Source: Myxococcales bacterium (lineage in GTDB: Bacteria > Myxococcota > Polyangia > Nannocystales > Nannocystaceae). From it: DNA of 64,000 nt. Below, piece by piece: positions 13,117 through 64,000 of the stretch. The stretch spans positions 186,001 through 250,000 of the forward strand of contig JAEUJW010000075.1 in NCBI GenBank assembly GCA_016793465.1. Direction: 5' to 3'. The notes under the pieces were generated by a model, which saw nothing but the letters and a program-made list of their open reading frames with translations, searched no databases and was not told the origin of the DNA. How positions within the stretch are numbered: position 1 is the stretch's first letter; every line of letters begins with the position of its first letter. Both the position numbers and the translations under genes were made by a program.

Positions 13117-14796
13117 ATGCTCGCCCGCCGGATCGCCGCGCTGCTCGCCGTCGCGGCCTGCCGCGGCCCCGATCCCGCGGGCGAGCCCGGGACCACCGGC
13201 GCCGACACCACCGACCCCCTCGCTATGTCCTCGTCGACGAGCGACACGACCACCGGCGACCCCGCCCCCGCCTTCACGCCCGGTCCGCCCGTGCTCCCGC
13301 GCCTCACCCGCGCCCAGTATTTCAACAGCCTGCGCGACATCTTCGGCCCCGACCTGCCGACCCCGCCGCTCGAGCCCGACCAGAACCCCCACCTGTTCGA
13401 CTCGATCGGCGCCGCCACCACCACGCTCTCCGAGCTCGGCGCCCAGCAGTACGAAGAAGCCGCCGACCTCATCGCCGCTCACATTTTTGATAATTCGGAG
13501 CCGTCACGCCGCGAGGCCCTCGTCGCCTGCGACGTCGCCGACGCGACCTGCACCGCCGAGTTCCTCGCCCGCGTCGGCCGCCGCCTCTACCGCCGCCCGC
13601 TCACCGAAGCAGAGCTCTCCCGCTGGACCGGCGTCGCCGCCGAGCTCGCCCTCGGCGACCCCTGGCGCGGCCTGCGATTCGCCGTCGCCGGCCTCATCCA
13701 ATCTCCCCACTTCCTCTACCGCGTCGAACCCGGCCACCCCGACAGTCTTAATAATTTTAACTTTAATTATTATGACTCTTACGAAATGGCGGCGCGCCTG
13801 TCGTTTCTCCTGTTGAACACGGGGCCCGACGACGTCCTGCTCGACGCCGCCGAGCGCGGTGAGCTCGGCGACGCCGCCAGCCTGCGCGCCCACGCCGAGC
13901 GCATGCTCGCCGACCCCCGCGCCCGCGTCGCCGTCCAGGAGTTCTTCGCGCAGCTGCTCGACCTGCGCCGCCTCGACGCCGTCGTCCGCGACCCCGCCGC
14001 CCACCCGCGCTGGACCCCGACCCTCGCCGCCGCCATGCGCCGCGAGGTCGAGCTGCTCGTCGACGACCACGTGTTCCGCCGCGACGCCGACATCCTCGCG
14101 CTGTTTAATCAGCGTCACACCTTCGTGAACGCCGACCTCGCGGCGCTGTACGGTGTCGCCGCGGAGGGGGCCGACGCGATCACCTACGTGCCCGTCGACC
14201 TGCCGGGCGAGCGCGCCGGCGTGCTCTCGCTCGCCGCCTTCCTCACCCTCACCAGCCACCCCGTCGAGACCTCGCCGACGCGCCGCGGCAAGTACCTGCG
14301 CGAGCGGATCCTGTGCCAGACCGTGCCGCCCCCGCCGCCCGGCGTCGACGCCAGCCTCGACCCGCCCGAAGGCGACACGCCCACCTCCGTGGCCGAGCGC
14401 CTCCTGGCCCACCGCAGCGACCCGGTGTGCGCCGGCTGCCACGACCTCATCGACCCGCCCGGCCTGCTGTTCGAACACTTCGACCCGATCGGCGCCTGGC
14501 GCGACGAGGCCCTCGGCCTGCCCGTCGACGCCGCCGGCGGCCTCGACGGCCTCACGATCGACGACGCGAGCGAGCTCGCCGACCTGCTCGCCGCCGACCC
14601 CCGCGTCGCCCGCTGCCTCGTCACCCAGCTGCACCGCCACGCCAGCGGCCGCCTCGCCGCCGCCGGCGAGCTGCCCGCGCTCGACGCCCTCGACGCCGCC
14701 TTCGCCGACCACCACCACAGCTTCCGCGCCCTCCTGCTCGACCTCGTGACCAGCGACGCCTTCCGCGCCGTCGCCCCCGCGGAGGAGGGCCCATGA
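13117..14796 (+). CDS. DUF1592/DUF1588/DUF1585 lipoprotein (cytochrome-like, PSD1-type family), copy 1
   Basis: The 559-residue product has a signal peptide with lipobox (LAVAAC), a Thr/Ser-rich linker and the domain chain of planctomycete/myxobacterial cytochrome-like proteins: DUF1587 (PRLTRAQYFNSLRDIFG), DUF1595, DUF1592 (FLYRVEPG, AARLSFLLLNTGPDD), DUF1588 (TSPTRRGKYLRERILCQT, then PPPPPGVDASL) and DUF1585. A CxxCH motif (DPVCAGCHDLIDPPG) could bind heme c. It overlaps a DUF1552 gene by 4 nt, the usual pairing. The biochemical role is unknown. The gene has the densest cluster of AT-rich codon pockets in the window (around 13485 and 13745-13790). Confidence 0.85.
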   Translation: MLARRIAALLAVAACRGPDPAGEPGTTGADTTDPLAMSSSTSDTTTGDPAPAFTPGPPVLPRLTRAQYFNSLRDIFGPDLPTPPLEPDQNPHLFDSIGAATTTLSELGAQQYEEAADLIAAHIFDNSEPSRREALVACDVADATCTAEFLARVGRRLYRRPLTEAELSRWTGVAAELALGDPWRGLRFAVAGLIQSPHFLYRVEPGHPDSLNNFNFNYYDSYEMAARLSFLLLNTGPDDVLLDAAERGELGDAASLRAHAERMLADPRARVAVQEFFAQLLDLRRLDAVVRDPAAHPRWTPTLAAAMRREVELLVDDHVFRRDADILALFNQRHTFVNADLAALYGVAAEGADAITYVPVDLPGERAGVLSLAAFLTLTSHPVETSPTRRGKYLRERILCQTVPPPPPGVDASLDPPEGDTPTSVAERLLAHRSDPVCAGCHDLIDPPGLLFEHFDPIGAWRDEALGLPVDAAGGLDGLTIDDASELADLLAADPRVARCLVTQLHRHASGRLAAAGELPALDALDAAFADHHHSFRALLLDLVTSDAFRAVAPAEEGP

Positions 14797-16175
14797 AATC
14801 TCTAATCAATCGTCGCACCCTCCTGCGCGGCAGCGTCGGCGGCGCCGCCGTCGCCCTCGCCCTGCCCCGCCTCGAAATTTTTAATAATCTCTCGCACGCC
14901 GCCCCGACCGCGGACGACCCGATCTTCGGCGTGTTCTTCTGGGGGAACGGCCTGCCGTGGCACGCGGGCCACGGCGAGGAGCAGGGCAGCAAGCCCGAGT
15001 TCGTCGACCTCTGGACCCCCGCCGCCACCGGCCCGGACTACGCCCCGAGCCCGTTATTAAAGATTCTCGCGGCGCACCGACCGAGCGTCGTCACCGGCCT
15101 CGAGCCGCACACCGACATCCCCGACGCGCCGCCCGGCCAGGACGACGGCCACATCCGCGGCTTCATGGTCTCGCTGACCTCGGACCGCATGCGCAGCGAG
15201 CTCTACGACTACGTGACCTTCACGGCCACCGCCCTGCAGCCGACCCTCGATCAGCTCGTCGCCAACCACCCGCGGTTCTACCGCGACGTCGCGCCGCGCT
15301 TCCGCTCGCTCGTGCTCGGCGTCAACCACGACTGCATGCTCAATTATGGCCACTGGCGATCGATCTCCTACAACGGCCCCGAATCTTTAAATCCTCCGAT
15401 CACCGACCCCACCCAATTTTATAAATTGCTGTTCACCGCCCCGCCGGACCTGCCCGACGTCGCCGCCCGCGTGCGCCTGCTCGACGCGATCCACGACGAC
15501 GCCGCCAGCCTGCGCGTGCACCTGCCCGCCGGCGACCGCCAGCGCCTCGACGCCCACCTCGAGCATTTGAGCGAGGTCCAGCGCCGGCTCGCGCTCAGCG
15601 TCGGCGTATGCGACGCGGCGCCCGCCGTGCCGGTCCCCGTCGCCGACCTCCACGCCCACGCCGAGCTCATGGCCGACCTCCTCGCCGTCGCCCTCGAGTG
15701 CGGGCTGACCCGCGTGTTCTCGTTCATGTTCACCCCCCCCGCGACCACCCACATTTTTAATAATATCGAGTCGCAGTTCGGCGGCCCGGTCCAGGTCGAC
15801 ATGCACAGCGTGTGTCACAAGGGCGAGTGGGAGACGGTGCGGCGGATCTCCGAGTATCAGCTGCAGGGCTTCGCCCGCGTGCTCGACCGCCTGCAGGCCA
15901 GCGTCGGCCCCGACGACCGCACGCTGCTCGACCGCGCCTGCATCCTCGGCACCTCGGAGTACGGCGAGGGCTGGAAGCACTCGGTCAAGGAGACCCCCAC
16001 GCTCGCCGTCGGCGGCGCCGCCGGGGCGCTGCGCCGCGGCGTGCACGTGCGCGAGCCCGGCGGCAACCTGAGCAAATTTCACCTCACCCTGCTGCGCGCG
16101 ATCGGGCTCGACCTGCCCACCTTCGGCTTCCATGGCGGCGAGACCGACGAAGAGTTCCCGGAGCTCCGCGCCTGA
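14793..16175 (+). CDS. DUF1552 protein with Tat-type signal, copy 1
   Basis: This 460-residue protein starts NRRTLLRGSVGGAAVALALP, a twin-Arg signal, and then shows the DUF1552 pattern: FGVFFWGNGLPWH, LEPHTDI, GFMVSLTSDR, and near the end LDRACILGTSEYGEG and AVGGAAGALRRGVHV. DUF1552 proteins are exported and almost always encoded after a DUF1592 gene; they resemble DUF1501 sulfatase-like proteins. ATG 14793 overlaps the previous stop (ATGA) and is preceded by GGAGGAGGG (14781-14789). Several AT-rich codon pockets occur (EIFNNL, PLLKIL, QFYKLL, HIFNNI). Confidence 0.85.
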   Translation: MKSLINRRTLLRGSVGGAAVALALPRLEIFNNLSHAAPTADDPIFGVFFWGNGLPWHAGHGEEQGSKPEFVDLWTPAATGPDYAPSPLLKILAAHRPSVVTGLEPHTDIPDAPPGQDDGHIRGFMVSLTSDRMRSELYDYVTFTATALQPTLDQLVANHPRFYRDVAPRFRSLVLGVNHDCMLNYGHWRSISYNGPESLNPPITDPTQFYKLLFTAPPDLPDVAARVRLLDAIHDDAASLRVHLPAGDRQRLDAHLEHLSEVQRRLALSVGVCDAAPAVPVPVADLHAHAELMADLLAVALECGLTRVFSFMFTPPATTHIFNNIESQFGGPVQVDMHSVCHKGEWETVRRISEYQLQGFARVLDRLQASVGPDDRTLLDRACILGTSEYGEGWKHSVKETPTLAVGGAAGALRRGVHVREPGGNLSKFHLTLLRAIGLDLPTFGFHGGETDEEFPELRA

Positions 16176-35762: not shown

Positions 35763-35789
35763 ACTTTAAATTTCCTCGCCGCAGTTGAG

Positions 35790-35862
35790 GGCGTGCGATG
35801 GGACTCGAACCCACAACCCTCCGATGCACAGTCGGTCGCTCCACCATTGAGCTACGCACGCC
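35790..35862 (-). tRNA. tRNA-His (GTG)
   Basis: The minus-strand cloverleaf is complete: G-1 paired with discriminator C73, acceptor GCGTGCG/CGCACGC, D arm GCTC...GAGC, anticodon loop CTGTGCA giving GTG, T arm GTGGG-TTCGAGT-CCCAT. The extra 5' G and C73 are the identity marks of tRNA-His. The 27-43 pair is A-A. CCA is not encoded. First gene on the right-hand side of the SDR gene, in a three-tRNA cluster. Confidence 0.9.
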
Positions 35863-35940
35863 ATGGGGTCCGCACCGCTCCGGACCCCGGATGTCGAGCT
35901 GTCACGCGCATATGTGTCCCTCCTTCTCCTGAGATTGTGA

Positions 35941-36014
35941 TTGCGAGGGCGGGATTCGAACCCGCGATCTTCGAGTTATGAGCCCGCTATGTTGGCCGAC
36001 TACACCACCTCGCA
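35941..36014 (-). tRNA. tRNA-Met (CAT)
   Basis: Acceptor TGCGAGG/CCTCGCA with discriminator A, D arm GTGT...ACAT with the GG pair in the loop, anticodon loop CTCATAA (CAT), T arm GCGGG-TTCGAAT-CCCGC. The paired first position (T1-A72) argues against an initiator. CAT could also be a lysidine-modified tRNA-Ile2; the sequence alone does not decide. The 27-43 pair is mismatched (G-A). Confidence 0.88.
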
Positions 36015-36061
36015 GCGAACCGACCCGAACCCCTCATTCGCATGAGTTGGTGGATCGTCGG

Positions 36062-36133
36062 AGCTGGCGGAGGGATTCGAACCCCCGACCGGCTGATTAC
36101 AAATCAGCAGCTCTGCCCCTGAGCTACGCCAGC
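36062..36133 (-). tRNA. tRNA-Thr (TGT)
   Basis: Acceptor GCTGGCG/CGCCAGC with discriminator T, D arm GCTC...GAGC, anticodon stem GCTGA/TCAGC with loop TTTGTAA giving TGT, T arm GGGGG-TTCGAAT-CCCTC. This is the most upstream tRNA in the minus-strand cluster Thr-Met-His. The following 288 bases (36134-36421) contain no gene. Confidence 0.93.
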
Positions 36134-56807: not shown

Positions 56808-57827
56808 TCAGCGATCTTCGAAGCAGTACAGGCGATTCGCCGTGGCGCACAGGCGGGTCGCGTGGTGCGTCCACTGCGAGTCGGCCTGCTCGGCCGAGCC
56901 GACCGCGCCCACCGTCTCGCCGACGTCGCCCCTGTCGGTCCAGCCCGCGCAGTCGTCGGCGGACGCGACGGTGCCGTCGGCGAGCGTGTTGGACCACACC
57001 CCGCCGTAGACCGGCTCGCCGCGCTCGTCGGCGCCGATGTCCCGCTCGAGGAGGCCATCGACGAGGTCGTGCCAGCCGCGCGCGAGCACCGGGAACCCGA
57101 ACGACAGCAGGCGATAGCGCCCCGTGAACCCGCGGTCGAAGCGCCCCGCCGGAGCCGACCCCGCCGCGCCGAGCCACGCCTTGTAGCTCCCGGACAGCCC
57201 GGCCGCGTGCGCCAGCGTGTCGCAGCGTAAGTCCGCCAGCGCGATCCCGTCGAGCGCCTCCGGATCGTCGACGCCGCGGTTCATGTCGCCGAAGTACGCG
57301 ACGCTGGTGGCGAACACCCGCCGCTCGGCCACGCAGTCGGGCGAGCAGCCGTCGCCGACCTCGTGGTCGGCGTCGTCGCAGCCCTCGCCGGCCGCGGCGT
57401 TGACGACCCCGTCGCCGCACACCGGCAGCCGGCAGTCCGCCTCGCAGCCCGCCGTCTGCGCCCCGCCCTCGTCGCACAGCTCCGGCCCGTTGCGCGATCC
57501 GTCGCCGCAGTGGGCCACGCGCTGGCACTCCGCCGTGCAGGCCACGGACACCGGACGCGACGGCGAATACGCGGGGTCGTCGTTGACCCCGTCGTCGCAA
57601 GCCTCGGCCCCGGCGACCACGCCGTCACCGCAGGTGTTGCAGTCCTCCGGGCAGCCGAGCGCGTCCTCGCCGGTCGCGCACACCTGGTCGCCGCAGCGCC
57701 CCGGCGCCTCGTACCCGGAGGACTCGCCCGAACCTTCGCTCGAAGCGCCGTCCGCGAGCGTCTCGGACGGTTCTTCGGCGGCGCAAGCCGCCACGCACAA
57801 CATGAGGGACAAACTCCGCAGATCCAT
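56808..57827 (-). CDS. Lipoprotein with disulfide repeats and DUF1554 domain, copy B
   Basis: The 339-residue product has a signal peptide with lipobox (MLCVAAC) and several Myxo-type Cys repeats, including RCGDQVCATGEDALGCPEDC, NTCGDGVVAGAEACDDG and VCGDGVVNAAAGEGCDD. A DUF1554 domain follows (RRVFATSVAYFGDMNR, LRCDTLAHAAGLSGSYKAWL) with terminal Cys pair LCATANRLYCFEDR. It is a close paralog of the next gene (57858-58883) and a more distant one of 39387-40310. The two copies lie head to tail 30 bases apart, which points to tandem duplication. Confidence 0.8.
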   Translation of the reverse strand: MDLRSLSLMLCVAACAAEEPSETLADGASSEGSGESSGYEAPGRCGDQVCATGEDALGCPEDCNTCGDGVVAGAEACDDGVNDDPAYSPSRPVSVACTAECQRVAHCGDGSRNGPELCDEGGAQTAGCEADCRLPVCGDGVVNAAAGEGCDDADHEVGDGCSPDCVAERRVFATSVAYFGDMNRGVDDPEALDGIALADLRCDTLAHAAGLSGSYKAWLGAAGSAPAGRFDRGFTGRYRLLSFGFPVLARGWHDLVDGLLERDIGADERGEPVYGGVWSNTLADGTVASADDCAGWTDRGDVGETVGAVGSAEQADSQWTHHATRLCATANRLYCFEDR

Positions 57828-57857
57828 GGTCTTCACGATCTCCCGAAACACAAAAAC

Positions 57858-58883
57858 TCAGCGGTCCTCGAAGCAGTAGAACGCGTGGACCTCGGCGCAG
57901 GCGGCCTCGCCCTCGCTCGTCCACGCGGCGCCGGTGGCCCAGCTGACCCCGGTCGTGGCGAACACCTCGATGCTCCACGCGCTCTTCGACCAGTTCATGC
58001 AGTGATCCGACGAGGCGACCAGCCCGTTGCTCGTCGTCGACGTCCAGACCCGGGCCAGCATCGTCTCCCCGTGCTCGTCGGCGACGATCGGGTGCAGCAG
58101 CTCGCCGTCGACGAGGTCACGCCACGAGCGCGCCACGACCTGCGCCTCGGGCGTCGGCAGGCGATACAAACCCTCGAAGTCGGTGTCGAAGCGGTCCGCC
58201 GGCTCCGTCGTGAAGTCCGCCAGCCACGCCTTGTACACGCCCGGGAGCCCGGCCCGCTCGGCCTGCTGGTTGCAGCGCAGGTCGGCCAGGGCGATCCCCC
58301 GCAGGTCCTCGGGGTTGCTCTCGAGCGGCTCGAAGTCGCCGTGCAGCTCGTAGCTGGTCACGAACACCCGGCGCTCGCGCTCACAGTCCGGCGAGCAGCC
58401 GTCGCCCTCGACCGCGTTGGCGTCGTCGCACCCCTCGCCCGCATCTTTGTTAACGACGCCGTCGCCGCAGACCGGCGCGCGGCAGTCCGCCTCGCACTCG
58501 GCCGTCTGCGCCCCGCCGGCGTCACACTGCTCGGGCCCGTTCTGCACCCCGTCGCCGCAGCTCGCCACCAGCCGACACTCCGCCGTGCAAGCCTCCGCCC
58601 GCACCCCGACCGCGTACGCCGGATCTTCATTAATGCCGTTGTCGCAGGCCTCGCTGCCGAACACCACGCCGTCCCCGCAGACGTTGCAATCTCGCGGACA
58701 GGACTCCACCCCCTCGCCCCGCCCGCACACGGCGTCGCCGCAGACCAGCAGGCCCAGCGCGTCGCCGTCGACCCCGATCGTCGGCTCGGCGCCCGTCGAA
58801 CCCTCGTCGTCGCCGACGCCGGACGCATCAAAAGCACAGGCCGGACCCGCGAGGATCCCCAGGAACAACACACATCGTCGCAT
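57858..58883 (-). CDS. Lipoprotein with disulfide repeats and DUF1554 domain, copy C
   Basis: From ATG 58883 (GTG 58892 is an alternative) the 341-residue protein has a lipobox (LAGPAC), the Cys repeat series (VCGDAVCGRGEGVESCPRDC, NVCGDGVVFGSEACDNG, VCGDGVVNKDAGEGCDD) and DUF1554 (RRVFVTSYELHGDFEP, LRCNQQAERAGLPGVYKAWL), ending CAEVHAFYCFEDR, identical at the last six residues to copy B. It lies upstream of copy B on the same strand and 144 bases after the DUF1552 gene. AT-rich pockets occur at VVNKDAG and GINEDP. Confidence 0.8.
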   Translation of the reverse strand: MRRCVLFLGILAGPACAFDASGVGDDEGSTGAEPTIGVDGDALGLLVCGDAVCGRGEGVESCPRDCNVCGDGVVFGSEACDNGINEDPAYAVGVRAEACTAECRLVASCGDGVQNGPEQCDAGGAQTAECEADCRAPVCGDGVVNKDAGEGCDDANAVEGDGCSPDCERERRVFVTSYELHGDFEPLESNPEDLRGIALADLRCNQQAERAGLPGVYKAWLADFTTEPADRFDTDFEGLYRLPTPEAQVVARSWRDLVDGELLHPIVADEHGETMLARVWTSTTSNGLVASSDHCMNWSKSAWSIEVFATTGVSWATGAAWTSEGEAACAEVHAFYCFEDR

Positions 58884-58975
58884 CGCAGTCACGTGCCATG
58901 AGCGACGCTTCCGCGGGCCTCAGATCGAGGATTTCTCGTGGCATTAACTGTATGGGCCAATACAATTTCTGGCGC

Positions 58976-59027: not shown

Positions 59028-60404
59028 TCAGGTCAGCAGCTCGGCCACCGGGTTCGAGGTCGTGAACTGGTCGCTGCCGAAGCTGGCGACCGGCACCCCG
59101 CACGCCTTCAAGCACGTGAACGGCACCCGCGAGGCGATGTCCCCCGCGAGCGCCGCGTGCACCCCCGGGTGCACCAGCGCCCCGCCGGCCTTGCCCGCCA
59201 CGAACAGCGGGAAGTCGTTCATCGCGTGGTCCCAGCCGCCGGCCACGTCGCTGGTGCCGAGGATGCAGCAGCGGTCGAGCAGGTTGCCGCCCGCCTCCGG
59301 CAGCGCCTTCAACGCGGCCACGAAGTCGCCGAACACCTCGACGAAGTAGCGCAGCCCGGTGAGCACGTTGGTGTCGTAGCCGTTGGCGTGCTCGTACTCG
59401 TGGAACGAGGTGCCGAGCCCCTGCCCGGTGATGCCGATGTCGGGGTAGTCGACGTGCGAGGCCGGGCTCGAGAACTCGAGCGACACCACGCGGTTCAAGT
59501 CGCAGGCGAACGCCAGCGCCACCAGCTCGGCCATCACCTTGGCCCGCGCGCGCTCCGACGCCGGGTTGCCCGGGTCCGACGGCAGCGCGCAGGCCTCTCC
59601 GCCCATGACCTGCGCCGTCAGCCGGTTCTGCAGCTCGTAGATCCCCTCGAGGTGCAGGTCGAGCCGCGTGCGGTCGTTCTTGCCGAGGCGCCCGCGCAGG
59701 TCGGCCGCGTCTCCGCGGACCGCGTCGAGCACCATCACCCGGGCCAGCGCCGCCGGGTCGACCGCCCCCGGCTCGAAGCCCCCGCCGAACAGCGCCGCGA
59801 ACAGCGCGCTCGGGTCCATCGTCGGCGGGTTGAACACGTACGGCGCCGGATGCGAGATGTAGCTGATCGCCGTGCCCGGCGCGTTGACGCTGCCCGCGTC
59901 CGACGTGTGCACCGGCGTCACGCCGAGCGCCAGCGTGCGAAACGGCGTCTTGCCGGCCAGCGTGTCGACCGCGATCTGATCGACCGACGGCGACGGCACC
60001 GTCAAAAAATCCCAGTCGTTGGCCTGCCCGTTGAACGACGGGTGCAGCAGCGGGTTGCCCCCCGCCAAAATTCCCACCGCCCCCTCCGCGTGCGGGTTCT
60101 TGACCGCCAGCGTCGGCAGCACCGCGCCGCTCACCACGCTCACGTACTCCTTCACCGCCGCCAGCCCGGCGAGCAGCCCCGTCGCCTCCCAGCCCGCGCC
60201 CAGCGCCGCCGGCGCCCACGCCCCCGGCTGCGTCCCGTTGCCCCAGAACCACACCCCGAAGCGCAGCGGCAGCGGCTCGCCGTCGGCCAGCGCCTCGCCG
60301 TTCGAGTCGAGCATCGCCTCGAGCAGCGGCAGCCCCATGCACACCGCCCCCGCACCGACAGCCCCGCGCAGCAGCGTGCGCCGCTTGATCGCTCGTACCC
60401 TCAT
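59028..60404 (-). CDS. DUF1552 protein with Tat-type signal, copy 2
   Basis: The 458-residue protein begins KRRTLLRGAVGAGAVCMGLP, a twin-Arg signal, and has the DUF1552 pattern FGVWFWGNGTQPGAWAP, VNAPGTAISYISHPAPYVFN and LDRCCILGTSDVAGGWDHAM, ending FTTSNPVAELLT. It is a paralog of 14793-16175 with low identity outside motifs. ATG 60404 overlaps the DUF1592 stop (ATGA). Unlike copy 1 it has few AT-rich codon pockets, which suggests a different history. Confidence 0.85.
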   Translation of the reverse strand: MRVRAIKRRTLLRGAVGAGAVCMGLPLLEAMLDSNGEALADGEPLPLRFGVWFWGNGTQPGAWAPAALGAGWEATGLLAGLAAVKEYVSVVSGAVLPTLAVKNPHAEGAVGILAGGNPLLHPSFNGQANDWDFLTVPSPSVDQIAVDTLAGKTPFRTLALGVTPVHTSDAGSVNAPGTAISYISHPAPYVFNPPTMDPSALFAALFGGGFEPGAVDPAALARVMVLDAVRGDAADLRGRLGKNDRTRLDLHLEGIYELQNRLTAQVMGGEACALPSDPGNPASERARAKVMAELVALAFACDLNRVVSLEFSSPASHVDYPDIGITGQGLGTSFHEYEHANGYDTNVLTGLRYFVEVFGDFVAALKALPEAGGNLLDRCCILGTSDVAGGWDHAMNDFPLFVAGKAGGALVHPGVHAALAGDIASRVPFTCLKACGVPVASFGSDQFTTSNPVAELLT

Positions 60405-62089
60405 GGCCAGTCCTCCGCGTGCAGCGACGCGTAGCGGAAGCTCTCGCTGCGCGCCAGCGCCTCGATCGCCGCCGTCAGGTCGTACCCGCCGTCGATCATC
60501 GCCTTCGTCAGGGCCGCGATCGCCGGCTGCTCGACGCCCTGCTCGATGTGCCCGGTCGCGTAGCGATACAGGTTGCGCACCACGCAATCGCCGGTCGACG
60601 CGTGCTCCGCGATCAGCCCCCCGAGCTCGACCGCGTCGGCGAACATCACCCCGTCGAGCTTCCCGCTCGGGTCGATCTCCAGCCCCTGGTCGGTCGCCCG
60701 CCAGCCCCCGATCGCGTCGAAATGCTCGAGCGCCAGCCCGATCGGGTCCGTGAACTGATGGCAGCCCGCGCAGGTCGGGTCGGTCACGTGCTGGTCGAGC
60801 TGCTGCCGCTTCGTCATCGGCGCGTCGTCGCCCGGCTCCGGCAGCATCGCGTCGACCCCCGGCGGCGGCGGCGGGATCGTCTGGCACATCAACACCCGCC
60901 GCACCACCAGCCCGCGCTTGGTCGGCGACGTGCTCGCCTCCCCCGAGTTGATGGCCAGGAACCCCGCGAGCGTCAGCAGCCCGCCGCGCCCCTCCGGCAG
61001 CGTCACCGGCGTGAACTCGGGCCCGAACGCCCCCTCCAGCCCGTACAGCGCCGCCAGTTCGGCGTCGACGAACCCGCCGTCGCTCGCCAACAATCGCCGA
61101 TAGTCGCGCTGCACGAGCACGGTGTCGGCGATCACCCGCACCATCTCCTCGCGCATCGCCGGCCCGAGCGTCGGCGTGAACGCCGGCAGCAGCACGGCGT
61201 CCTTCTGCAGCGACAGCAGCGCGTCGAGGTCGAACATGTCGACGAACAGCTGGATCACCCCGTCCCGCGCCCGCGGCGACGCGAACAGCCGGTCGACCTG
61301 CGCCAGCGTGCCGTCCTCCTCATCGAGCTCGCCCGCGGCGGCCGCCGCCAGCAGCTCCTCGTCCGGCGTGGTGTTCCAGAGCAAATACGACAGCCGCGAG
61401 GCCAGCTCGTAGCCGTCGAGCCGCACGAACAGCGGATCGTCCGCCGCCACCGGCGCGCCGAGCTCGACGCGATACAAAAAATTCGGCGACTGCAAGATCC
61501 CCGCGACCGCGTACTGCAGCCCGACCCACGCGTCCCCGCCGAGCAGCCCCGACACCCCGACCACGACCTCGCCCCAGCGCTCGACCTCCGCCGCCGTCAG
61601 CGGCCGCCGCCACGCCCGCCGCCCCAGCATCGCCACCACCTGGGCCGCGCACGCGTCGCCCGGGCTGGCCGTCGGCGTGCACCCCGCGACCTGCAGGCGC
61701 ACCGCCGGGTCCGCGAACACCGCCGCCGTGATCGCCTGCGCCGCCTCCTCGTAGTCCTCGACCGCCGCCGCCGCGACCCCGCCCTGCGCCGCCGCGATCG
61801 ACGAGCGCCACTGCCCGACCATCGGCGCCGTCGCCACGCCCAGCACGTCGATCACCGAGTTGCGGTACTGCGTCGGCGTCAGCAGCCGCAGCCCCGTCGG
61901 CCCCGCCGCGTGCTCCTCCGCCGCCTCGCCGGTGGTGCCCTCACCACCGCCGTCCGACGACGACCCGACCTCCACGCCCGAGCTGCCCCCGCTCTCACCG
62001 CCGTCCGCCGCGCTGCCCGAGTAACACCCGCACGCGAGCGTCACCCACGCGACCCAGACCCCGCGGCCGACAGCATGCGCGCGCCTCAT
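60401..62089 (-). CDS. DUF1592/DUF1588/DUF1585 protein (cytochrome-like), copy 2
   Basis: The 562-residue product has an N-terminal signal (VWVAWVTLACGC), a Gly/Ser/Glu linker and the domain chain GLRLLTPTQYRNSVIDVLG (DUF1587), FLYRVELGAPVAADDPLF and RLSYLLWNTTPDEELLAAA (DUF1592), TSPTKRGLVVRRVLMCQT (DUF1588), and CxxCH in DPTCAGCHQFTDPIGLALEH. It parallels copy 1 at 13117-14796 and precedes its own DUF1552 partner. TAGAGT (62097-62102) ends 7 nt before ATG 62089, so the transcript is probably leaderless. Three tRNA-like elements lie just upstream. Confidence 0.85.
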   Translation of the reverse strand: MRRAHAVGRGVWVAWVTLACGCYSGSAADGGESGGSSGVEVGSSSDGGGEGTTGEAAEEHAAGPTGLRLLTPTQYRNSVIDVLGVATAPMVGQWRSSIAAAQGGVAAAAVEDYEEAAQAITAAVFADPAVRLQVAGCTPTASPGDACAAQVVAMLGRRAWRRPLTAAEVERWGEVVVGVSGLLGGDAWVGLQYAVAGILQSPNFLYRVELGAPVAADDPLFVRLDGYELASRLSYLLWNTTPDEELLAAAAAGELDEEDGTLAQVDRLFASPRARDGVIQLFVDMFDLDALLSLQKDAVLLPAFTPTLGPAMREEMVRVIADTVLVQRDYRRLLASDGGFVDAELAALYGLEGAFGPEFTPVTLPEGRGGLLTLAGFLAINSGEASTSPTKRGLVVRRVLMCQTIPPPPPGVDAMLPEPGDDAPMTKRQQLDQHVTDPTCAGCHQFTDPIGLALEHFDAIGGWRATDQGLEIDPSGKLDGVMFADAVELGGLIAEHASTGDCVVRNLYRYATGHIEQGVEQPAIAALTKAMIDGGYDLTAAIEALARSESFRYASLHAEDWP

Positions 62090-62198: not shown

Positions 62199-62266
62199 CA
62201 GACCGCCAGAGGATCGAACTCTGTCCGCAGGATTTGGTGTCCCGCAGCCCCCCCAGGAAGCGATCG
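62199..62266 (-). ncRNA. tRNA-like element A (68 nt, CCA anticodon position)
   Basis: The minus strand folds as acceptor CGATCGC/GCGGTCT (six of seven pairs), a 15-base D region (TTCCTGGGGGGGCTG) too small for a normal D arm, anticodon stem CGGGA/TCCTG with loop CACCAAA, variable CGGA, T stem CAGAG/CTCTG with canonical loop TTCGATC, and discriminator G. The loop places CCA (Trp) at 34-36, but U33 is A. It differs from copies B and C at many stem positions, mostly with compensating changes. Confidence 0.6.
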
Positions 62267-62307
62267 AAAGTCCCCAATTTTAAAAAATCTCAAAAGATCC
62301 TCCGCCA

Positions 62308-62375
62308 CAGGCCGCCAGGGGATCGAACCCTGCCCGCCGGATTTGGAGTCCAGCGGTCCCCCCAGGAAGCAGCCT
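62308..62375 (-). ncRNA. tRNA-like element B (68 nt, CCA anticodon position)
   Basis: Acceptor AGGCTGC/GCGGCCT pairs fully (one wobble). D region TTCCTGGGGGGACCG (15 nt; at most a 3-bp stem TCC/GGA). Anticodon stem CTGGA/TCCGG, loop CTCCAAA with U33 and anticodon CCA as in tRNA-Trp. Variable CGGG, T stem CAGGG/CCCTG, loop TTCGATC, discriminator G followed by TGG instead of CCA. It is nearly identical to copy C. Confidence 0.65.
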
Positions 62376-62393
62376 ATCTCTCGTCCCGCGCCA

Positions 62394-62461
62394 CAGGCCG
62401 CCAGGGGATCGAACCCTGCCCGCCGAATTTGGAGTCCAGCGGTCCCCCCAGGAAGCAGCCT
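62394..62461 (-). ncRNA. tRNA-like element C (68 nt, CCA anticodon position)
   Basis: Same as element B except for one base in the 3' anticodon stem (TTCGG, creating a G-T wobble). The 5' flank GAGAT and the 3' GTGG are shared with B. The repeat period from B to C is 86 bases. Confidence 0.65.
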
Positions 62462-63025
62462 ATCTCTGCACTCATCGCTGCCCGCGGATCGGGCTCCGAC
62501 GGCCCCTTCCGGGCCACGGCCAATGCTCTCTCGACAATACGAATCTCCGCACTGCACATTCGCAGCACCTTCATTCGCCGCACGCGCCCCGCGTTCGCAG
62601 CACCGCGTGTCGCTCGCGGACGACCCGACGCACGCGGACGCACGTCGTCGCGCGCACGACGTCCTCCGAGACGCCCGCCGTCGCACCGCCGCACGCCAGG
62701 CCGAACCCGCAGAGCCGCGAATTCAGGCCAAAAGACGCCGCAGGAGTCGATTACGCCCGAACGCGAGCCCGAGCTATGCGCGCCACCACGGGCACCAGGA
62801 GCGCGACCAGAGCTCCGCGACGCGCGAAGCGGCGGGCATGGCGGCGGGACCGGCGATGTGGATGGCGAGCGGCACGAGCACCTCGATGAGCCCCGATATC
62901 TACGCTCCCGCCGCCTCAATGTCAACACTCTCGACCCCGCACTATCAACAATTATTAAATCGTCGATCGTCGGCCGCGGCCCCGCGGCCGCGCGCTCACC
63001 CGCGCCCACGCGGCCGCAGTGACCC
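62462..63025. other. Intergenic region without a recognisable gene
   Basis: These 564 bases lie between the tRNA-like array and the end of the glycosyltransferase-like gene. Open frames exist on both strands but are Arg/Pro/Ala-rich and lack domains. Near the right end are an AT-rich patch (62946-62960) and GC-rich inverted repeats (62972-62994, GGCCGCGG...CCGCGGCC), possibly ending the minus-strand transcript that stops at 63026. Confidence 0.5.
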
Positions 63026-64000
63026 TCAACGCCGGAGCGCCCGCACCACCGCCACGAGCGCCCCCGCCCCGACGCCCCCGACGACCACAAACCCGAGCGC
63101 CGGCCCCCAGACCCCGACGCGCGCCAGCTTGATCGCCCCGACGCTGAGCATGTCGACCGGCTGCCCCGCGAACCCGACGACGGGGCTCGCCGAGGGCGAC
63201 CAGTGCGACGCCGCGATGTAGCCCGACCCGTCCATGCGCATCATCAGGCGCGCCATCCACTCGAAGATCGAGTGCACCCCGAACCACCCCGACAGCCCGA
63301 CCGCCAGCCCCACACCGATCCACCAGCACACCCGCCGCCAGCGCGCCCACCCCGGCACCACGTCCTCGAGCGCCGCCGCGAACCCCAGCATCGCCAGCGG
63401 GATCACCGGCACCAGGTGCCGCGCCCCCAGCCCCCACCCGCCGTACCAGTCGCTGCGCGTCGAGATCACCAGCCACCGCAGCAGCATCGTGCCCACCGCG
63501 AACCACCACACCACCGCCCCTCTGCGGCGCAGCGCCGCCCACCCGAGCAGCCCCAGCGCCGCCGCCGGCGAGTACAGCCAGAAGCTGCGCCCCGGCCCCA
63601 CGAGCAGCCCGGCGAGCCCCTCCCACGGCCACACGAACCAGCTGTAGTGGCCGAACCGCCCGGTCTCGAGCGGGTCGCCGAACCGCCACCACTGCCCGAG
63701 CAGCAGCAGCCCCGCCGCGAGCGCCAGCAGCCCCGCCGCGCCGATCCACCCGCGCCGGTCGCCGCGCCCGTACGCCAGCGCCAGCCCGATCGCACACGGC
63801 AACAGCGTCACGTTCAGCGCGTGCACGTGCAGCGAGAACCCGACGATCGCCCCCGCCAACCACAGCCACCGCGACCCCGCCCCGCGCCAGCGCGTCACGC
63901 AGTACGCCGCCGCCACCACGCACAGCCCGCTGAGCGGCTCGGACAGCATGGTGCGGCTGTACGCCCACGCCGACGTCGCCAGCGCGAACGCCCCCGCGGT
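63026..64000 (-). CDS. Polytopic membrane protein, glycosyltransferase (PMT/ArnT-like) family, C-terminal part
   Basis: The minus-strand frame is open from base 64000 to the stop at 63026 (324 residues visible). It begins ATSAWAYSRTMLSEPLSGL, the W.Y...-SEPL motif common in dolichol/undecaprenyl-phosphate-sugar glycosyltransferases. Seven to eight hydrophobic helices follow (AIVGFSLHVHALNVTLLPC, AAGLLLLGQWWRFGDP, LGARHLVPVIPLAMLGFAAAL). The internal ATG at 63949 is not the true start. Catalytic N-terminal acidic residues lie outside the window. Membrane glycosylation is inferred from the family. Confidence 0.7.
   Translation of the reverse strand, partial: TAGAFALATSAWAYSRTMLSEPLSGLCVVAAAYCVTRWRGAGSRWLWLAGAIVGFSLHVHALNVTLLPCAIGLALAYGRGDRRGWIGAAGLLALAAGLLLLGQWWRFGDPLETGRFGHYSWFVWPWEGLAGLLVGPGRSFWLYSPAAALGLLGWAALRRRGAVVWWFAVGTMLLRWLVISTRSDWYGGWGLGARHLVPVIPLAMLGFAAALEDVVPGWARWRRVCWWIGVGLAVGLSGWFGVHSIFEWMARLMMRMDGSGYIAASHWSPSASPVVGFAGQPVDMLSVGAIKLARVGVWGPALGFVVVGGVGAGALVAVVRALRR

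Follow-up and report, generated by a model that had tools for sequence, protein, structure and literature searches.

Compact tRNA-Trp-like elements with a putative tRNA-Pyl-type body in a member of the Nannocystaceae

In descriptions of the tRNA for pyrrolysine (tRNA-Pyl), no more than one nucleotide separates the acceptor from the D stem, the D loop is small, the anticodon stem long, the variable loop short and the discriminator G73, and this compact core is said to set tRNA-Pyl apart from canonical tRNAs (accessible portions of PMC7609411 and PMC11764691). Despite its reduced body, tRNA-Pyl reads codons in translation, and the characterised pyrrolysyl-tRNA synthetases (PylRS) ignore the anticodon (accessible portions of PMC7609411). 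Bacterial tRNA genes, by comparison, were called surprisingly uniform in 2014 (PMC4033280, available excerpt). A non-standard tRNA-Trp(CCA) with a 4-bp anticodon stem is reported to be more prominent in five phyla, among them Myxococcota (PMC13092985, available excerpt). The elements described here resemble the latter in being non-standard tRNA-Trp(CCA)-like sequences; its anticodon stem is shortened, however, whereas theirs is lengthened and accompanied by a reduced D arm. Among the literature matches listed, titles and openings of abstracts name no compact bacterial tRNA-Trp.

Two organellar systems offer further comparisons. The D-armless tRNAs of metazoan mitochondria share a reduced D region with the elements, but are mitochondrial and metazoan. 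In plant mitochondria, t-elements are gene-adjacent structures of tRNA-like fold within non-coding DNA, where they serve as RNA processing signals; the likeness lies in such a fold next to a gene, whereas no sign of processing is seen at the locus described here. An earlier note had described this locus, from its sequence, as three tRNA-Trp-like copies with a collapsed D arm.

Locus, fold and covariation of the elements

The window comprises the 64,000 nt of contig JAEUJW010000075.1 (Myxococcales bacterium, Nannocystaceae) that were analysed, and positions are counted from its first letter. Its minus strand carries three elements of 68 nt, termed A (62394..62461), B (62308..62375) and C (62199..62266), located exactly where the earlier note had placed them. 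The near-identical pair consists of A and B, and C is the divergent copy; the labels A and C had been swapped at first, and the divergent stem sequences CAGAG/CTCTG, CGGGA/TCCTG and CGATCGC/GCGGTCT, real in themselves, belong to C. The element pattern matches the window three times (0 of 100 shuffles), always within one 263-nt cluster, and the suggestion of a tRNA-derived repeat family finds no support past this locus. Together with short flanks, A and B are contained in two minus-strand copies of an 84-nt repeat (62298-62381 and 62384-62467, spanning 62298..62467), which lie head-to-tail at 86 nt start to start and are 96% alike; the stretch with C is 73% alike to this repeat. The two copies represent a tandem duplication, recent by their identity.

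The elements share their strand with both flanking genes. Upstream lies a membrane-protein-like gene (63026..63949, minus strand; assigned by eye, without a Pfam match), and downstream a gene for a protein with the Pfam families DUF1595, DUF1592, DUF1588 and DUF1585 (60401..62089, minus strand), whose likely start codon, picked by eye, is 109 nt from element C. After the DUF1592 gene comes one of two separate DUF1552 genes of the window (59028-60887; the other at 14313-16175), and two adjacent DUF4215 genes, the first just below the cut-off and their similarity and kinship judged by eye, are found at 56808-58892 on the minus strand. A consensus-based promoter search at the elements found none. 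Just 3' of B, a weak hairpin runs into a U run (62282..62303, minus strand; -4.7 kcal/mol, z -0.96), a possible terminator candidate that is absent from the output of the terminator scan.

A position between two minus-strand genes, on their strand, would suit a processing or leader element, whose folds would act as cleavage marks or structure the 5' leader of the downstream DUF1592 gene without any use as tRNA. Structure that is retained while U33 and U8 are not, as across C and the copy in a relative described below, would suit it as well. Such a role would leave the conserved CCA anticodon and G73 without function and would not require three tandem copies, and it is the least probable of the explanations considered here.

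ARAGORN calls tRNA-Trp(cca) at 62307-62376 (B) and 62393-62462 (A), and makes no call at 62199-62266 (C). Rfam yields no tRNA match at the elements at the gathering score. The relaxed-threshold search that the earlier note had proposed returns tRNA-Sec as the best of the tRNA clan, scoring B at 28.5 and A at 24.0 bits, below the cut-off of 47; this identity was rejected, as a long variable arm is missing. A tmRNA identity was likewise rejected, an Rfam match being absent at the gathering score. The 3' CCA end is not encoded, as had been stated, which is uninformative because it is equally missing from the window's ordinary tRNA genes as detected by ARAGORN, all three of them (tRNA-His, tRNA-Met and tRNA-Thr, clustered at 35789-36133 on the minus strand).

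The common fold of A, B and C consists of a 7-bp acceptor stem, one linker U (U8), a D stem UCCU/GGGA with a 3-nt GGG loop, an 8-bp anticodon stem with a 7-nt loop, a 1-nt variable region, a 5-bp T arm with UUCGAUC and the discriminator G (G73). In A, the anticodon loop reads CUCCAAA and the T arm CAGGG-UUCGAUC-CCCUG. The loop of C is CACCAAA, which places A at tRNA position 33. The anticodon CCA and the discriminator G, both noted previously, are present in all three. The D arm is indeed reduced, with a D region of 15 nt compared with 18-20 nt in 13 tRNA-Trp; rather than being collapsed, it pairs as a mini-stem of 4 bp that closes a loop of 3 nt and follows a linker of 1 nt in the consensus fold and in the minimum free energy (MFE) fold of B. 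The MFE structure of C has a slipped 3-bp D stem and that of A is a different fold altogether, and a geometry with a 2-nt linker and a 3-bp stem is also feasible. The 5-bp anticodon stem and 4-nt variable loop originally proposed can be extended to a stem of up to 8 bp, leaving 1 nt of variable region, or 3 nt at 6 bp.

Out of 24 pairs, A and B each form 24 and C forms 23, its D-stem pair 9-19 being U-G and its first acceptor pair a C-U mismatch (C1-U67, or C1-U72 in tRNA numbering). A single position of the 68 distinguishes A from B, an anticodon-stem pair that is G-C in one and a G-U wobble in the other. Between B and C there are 13 differences in 68, whereby three pairs are changed on both sides and kept, four are changed on one side and kept, and one is broken. 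With the same 13 substitutions placed at random, at least three two-sided compensations have P = 0.0028, and pair retention alone, with the D stem left out (19 of 20 kept), has P = 0.062. The observed covariation score and pairing were reached by 15 of 500 shuffles, and the number of further pair types by 177 of 500. Slid structures pair 35-57% of cells versus 98.6% for the proposed structure, and the MFE z-scores (-1.07 to -1.54) are weak when taken alone. This comparison of copies confirms the elements as real and, at the sequence level, their stems as structurally conserved; the earlier view that the stems covary is upheld.

tRNA-Trp identity and tRNA-Pyl-type architecture

Elements listed for bacterial tryptophan identity include anticodon CCA, G73, A1-U72, G2-C71, G3-C70, G4-C69, G5-C68 and A9 (PMC9976931, available excerpt). 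A and B carry CCA, G73, A1-U72, G2-C71 and G3-C70, and have C4-G69, U5-G68 and U9 in place of G4-C69, G5-C68 and A9; of the first three acceptor pairs, C keeps only G2-C71. The features kept in A and B, along with the loop CUCCAAA, constitute the likeness to bacterial tRNA-Trp(CCA). In contrast to the latter, the elements lack a canonical D arm, have a short variable region and score below the Rfam gathering threshold for tRNA, and C and the relative's copy are without U33.

A model built from 13 tRNA-Trp (R3) gives B 41.3, A 36.9 and C 29.0 bits, 11 tRNA-Pyl 24.1-31.4 bits, the three ordinary tRNAs encoded in the window 46.1-57.0 bits, and two true tRNA-Trp, both in the training set, 90.3 and 91.9 bits. 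Across 49 arm positions, with the D and variable regions excluded, B matches the tRNA-Trp of two phages at 39 and 37 positions and that of E. coli at 31, while 10 of the 11 tRNA-Pyl (all but L012) could be used and match it at 28-32. C is equally near to one tRNA-Pyl and one tRNA-Trp, with 33 of 49 each.

A and B could be read as supernumerary elongator tRNA-Trp genes that decode UGG on the ribosome, with C as a dead copy. Their anticodon loop CUCCAAA with its U33 is intact, as are G73 and A1-U72, ARAGORN names both tRNA-Trp, and the ordinary translation machinery is described as using tRNAs with a reduced body such as tRNA-Pyl (PMC7609411, accessible portions). Yet U33 and U8 are missing from the relative's copy, and the R3 scores of A and B lie below those of the window's ordinary tRNAs and of true tRNA-Trp. 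On this evidence, a function as elongators seems distinctly unlikely.

A strict version of the element pattern, run against contigs of one genome per species, has a single match (L001), which was rejected as chance: it lies inside a long frame read as a squalene/phytoene-synthase-like gene and has no tRNA call. The strict pattern required TTCC before the G run, and the relative's copy, with C at position 8, would fail it. Archaeal genomes were reached by way of this chance match, and 17 of the 194 searched contain PylS above the cut-off. The covariance model from A, B and C alone that the earlier note had called for (R1) has been built, and matches once in each of these 17 pylS loci, beside pylS, at 21.1-37.7 bits; by position and CUA loop, these matches are taken as putative tRNA-Pyl. 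ARAGORN names three of the 17 tRNA-Pyl and misses the other 14 likely tRNA-Pyl genes adjoining pylS in this archaeal set (L009-L025).

R1 itself does not select for tRNA-Pyl. It ranks a tRNA-Pyl first in 6 of the 17 pyl genomes and some other tRNA in 10, while one has no top match, in a ranking whose first pass missed some tRNA-Pyl that R1 matched at the pylS loci; moreover, R1 gives the phage Hendrix tRNA-Trp 43.1 bits, above every tRNA-Pyl. A second covariance model (R2) was built from 11 distinct archaeal tRNA-Pyl, to which the 17 collapse, and contains no sequence from the window. On the window, R2 scores B at 46.8, A at 42.4 and C at 30.3 bits (E 4.3e-9, 5e-8 and 4.1e-5), and all else has E >= 0.95, the ordinary tRNA-Met reaching 11.9 bits. 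Its controls were 62 ordinary tRNA genes, some of them near-identical (3 from the window, 4 from E. coli, 44 from phages and plasmids, 11 from archaea). Their maximum is 30.7 bits, for a Latilactobacillus tRNA-Lys, and the 13 control tRNA-Trp score 11.5-30.2 bits; two of the model's own training tRNA-Pyl score 79.5 and 72.2 bits. Two CUA suppressor tRNAs of canonical size from phage XacN1 give only 18.2 and 16.4 bits, so R2 is not simply seeing the anticodon. In this Xanthomonas phage, the two suppressor genes are adjacent (L059, 13358-13516), and ARAGORN names both tRNA-Pyl.

By this model, A and B stand out as apparent tRNA-Pyl-type bodies, whereas the score of C does not exceed that of the highest-scoring ordinary tRNA. 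The description as tRNA-Trp-like with a reduced D arm holds for the identity features and had overlooked this architecture, to which the scores of the independent model point in A and B. The elements share with tRNA-Pyl a linker of at most 1 nt and a short D stem whose loop is within 3-5 nt (in the B and consensus folds), an anticodon stem of at least 6 bp, a variable loop of at most 3 nt, G73 and a length of 68 nt, compared with 67-68 nt in the archaeal set. They differ in their anticodon, CCA instead of CUA, and in the first acceptor pair, which is G1-C72 in tRNA-Pyl, A1-U72 in A and B and C1-U72 in C. Furthermore, no pylS was recognised in the window, and the acceptor and anticodon arms of A and B are nearer to those of the two phage tRNA-Trp.

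A member of the tRNA-Pyl lineage, with an anticodon changed from CUA to CCA and a dedicated synthetase, of PylRS type or other, that charges it without reading the anticodon, would account for R2 exceeding R3 by 5.5 bits in A and B each and by 1.3 bits in C, in so far as bits are roughly comparable across models. By eye, the linker and D-arm geometry of the elements corresponds to that of the archaeal tRNA-Pyl L012, and the anticodon blindness of characterised PylRS (PMC7609411, accessible portions) would allow the change. A1-U72 in place of G1-C72 speaks against such membership, as do the arm sequences of A and B. In addition, Pfam reveals no PylS-like protein among 48 window proteins, where a proline-tRNA ligase is the sole aminoacyl-tRNA synthetase, and a PylS query gave one weak match on a Streptomyces plasmid (E 2e-4, covering 40% of the query) and no relative among viral contigs. 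We regard this origin as very improbable. In sequence terms, the elements are best described as intermediate, with a predicted tRNA-Pyl-type body and tRNA-Trp-type identity; at 68 nt, common descent and convergence would look alike.

A copy in a relative and searches elsewhere

Gene callers translate such RNAs, and the antisense frames of B were for this reason searched against 5.8 billion predicted proteins. One protein of 113 aa matched (P0001, E 0.04); it contains RQAARGSNPARRIWGPAVPPGG, the antisense reading of an element. BLASTP lists this element match with 19 of 20 residues identical and does not list a second segment, which follows RQAARGSNPARRIWGPAVPPGG in P0001 and matches the window at about 62775-62886 in the same order and orientation. 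The alignment score of this segment is 120, compared with 69 for the best of 500 shuffles, and 22 of 34 residues are identical between the window block and P0001 in the plus-strand frame. The starts of element and second segment are 207 nt apart in the relative and 390 in the window. In a composite search, P0001 alone scored among 50 candidates, with a value of 8.6e-19 that is largely a self-match, as the query contained a segment of P0001. Searching with the sense-frame translation of the elements gave no match. These results identify P0001 as a spurious ORF over an element copy at the same locus in a relative.

The conserved block upstream of the elements (62774..62886, minus strand) contains a 35-aa minus-strand ORF that ends in ELWSRSWCPWWRA and has four Trp codons within its last 12. 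As regards the idea of a Trp leader, one of the four Trp sites cannot be Trp in P0001, and the other three can be Trp or stop (one also Cys).

The relative's copy is accessible by back-translation, in which many bases are codon-degenerate. Changes relative to B are forced at element positions 4, 5, 8 and 29, all 24 pairs are possible, and the copy retains G73 and anticodon CCA, with C both at position 8 and at position 29, which corresponds to tRNA position 33. Elsewhere, viral contigs gave no match in four DNA-pattern scans for the elements and one for tRNA-Pyl, and a protein scan of them with P0001 detected no relative. On plasmids and phages, the blastn matches to the elements were all short and weak, and several lie within ordinary tRNA genes.

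Possible roles of the elements

The anticodon CCA is present in 4 of 4 copies, if the back-translated one is included, whereas tRNA position 33 varies, with U in A and B, A in element C and C in the copy of the relative. U33 is near-universal in tRNAs. As to the earlier alternative of unusual tRNAs or tRNA mimics, its absence from C and the relative's copy counts against ordinary decoding by those two. Because anticodon and discriminator are kept and U33 is not, a role off the ribosome or through tryptophanyl-tRNA synthetase (TrpRS) appears more likely than the reading of UGG, a lean drawn from three distinct lineages (A and B as one, C, and the relative with its degenerate back-translation).

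Decay explains much of the pattern at position 33, and the loss of U33 fits decay equally well. A strong rival explanation is that the elements are relics of a compact tRNA-Trp gene, perhaps brought in by a mobile element, which was duplicated and is now decaying, with A and B as the freshest copies and C and the relative's copy as pseudogenes. A33 and the broken first acceptor pair of C, C33 and C8 in the relative, the omission of C by ARAGORN and the tandem duplication of A and B all agree with this history. It is harder to reconcile with 23 of 24 pairs and three two-sided compensations being kept in C, or with 24 of 24 being possible in the relative, many bases there being degenerate; no mobile-element family was recognised by Pfam among 10 proteins of the window, 4 of which have no Pfam family at all. 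Relics seem somewhat doubtful, though a serious contender.

The explanation we tentatively prefer, itself somewhat short of an even chance, is that the cluster gives rise to compact tRNA-Trp-like RNAs that remain recognisable to TrpRS and are under no constraint to decode, although A and B may be competent in translation as well. RNase P and 3' nucleases would release the RNA from its transcript, and a nucleotidyltransferase would add CCA, as for the other tRNAs of the window. TrpRS, for which the known bacterial identity set is largely kept, would recognise and perhaps charge the RNA, which may then act through TrpRS or off the ribosome as Trp-tRNA, as a decoy, a sensor or a tryptophan donor. 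Among 48 window proteins scanned with Pfam, many of them matchless, no biosynthetic family that uses aminoacyl-tRNA was noticed.

A more far-reaching version, which we consider unlikely, is a miniature tRNA lineage that would combine a tRNA-Pyl-type body with tryptophan identity, be charged by TrpRS or by a synthetase of its own and, serving off the ribosome as a donor of tryptophan or as a TrpRS decoy or sensor, be freed from U33. The tRNA-Pyl pair is described as a main tool of genetic code expansion (accessible portions of PMC7609411 and PMC11764691). If such a lineage exists, the tRNA-Pyl shape would have been adopted for a second amino acid, by independent origin or by re-use. A bacterial RNA in which this body is joined to tryptophan identity would show the shape to be separable from pyrrolysine, offer a fresh starting point for orthogonal tRNAs and be a candidate for a non-translational tRNA-Trp.
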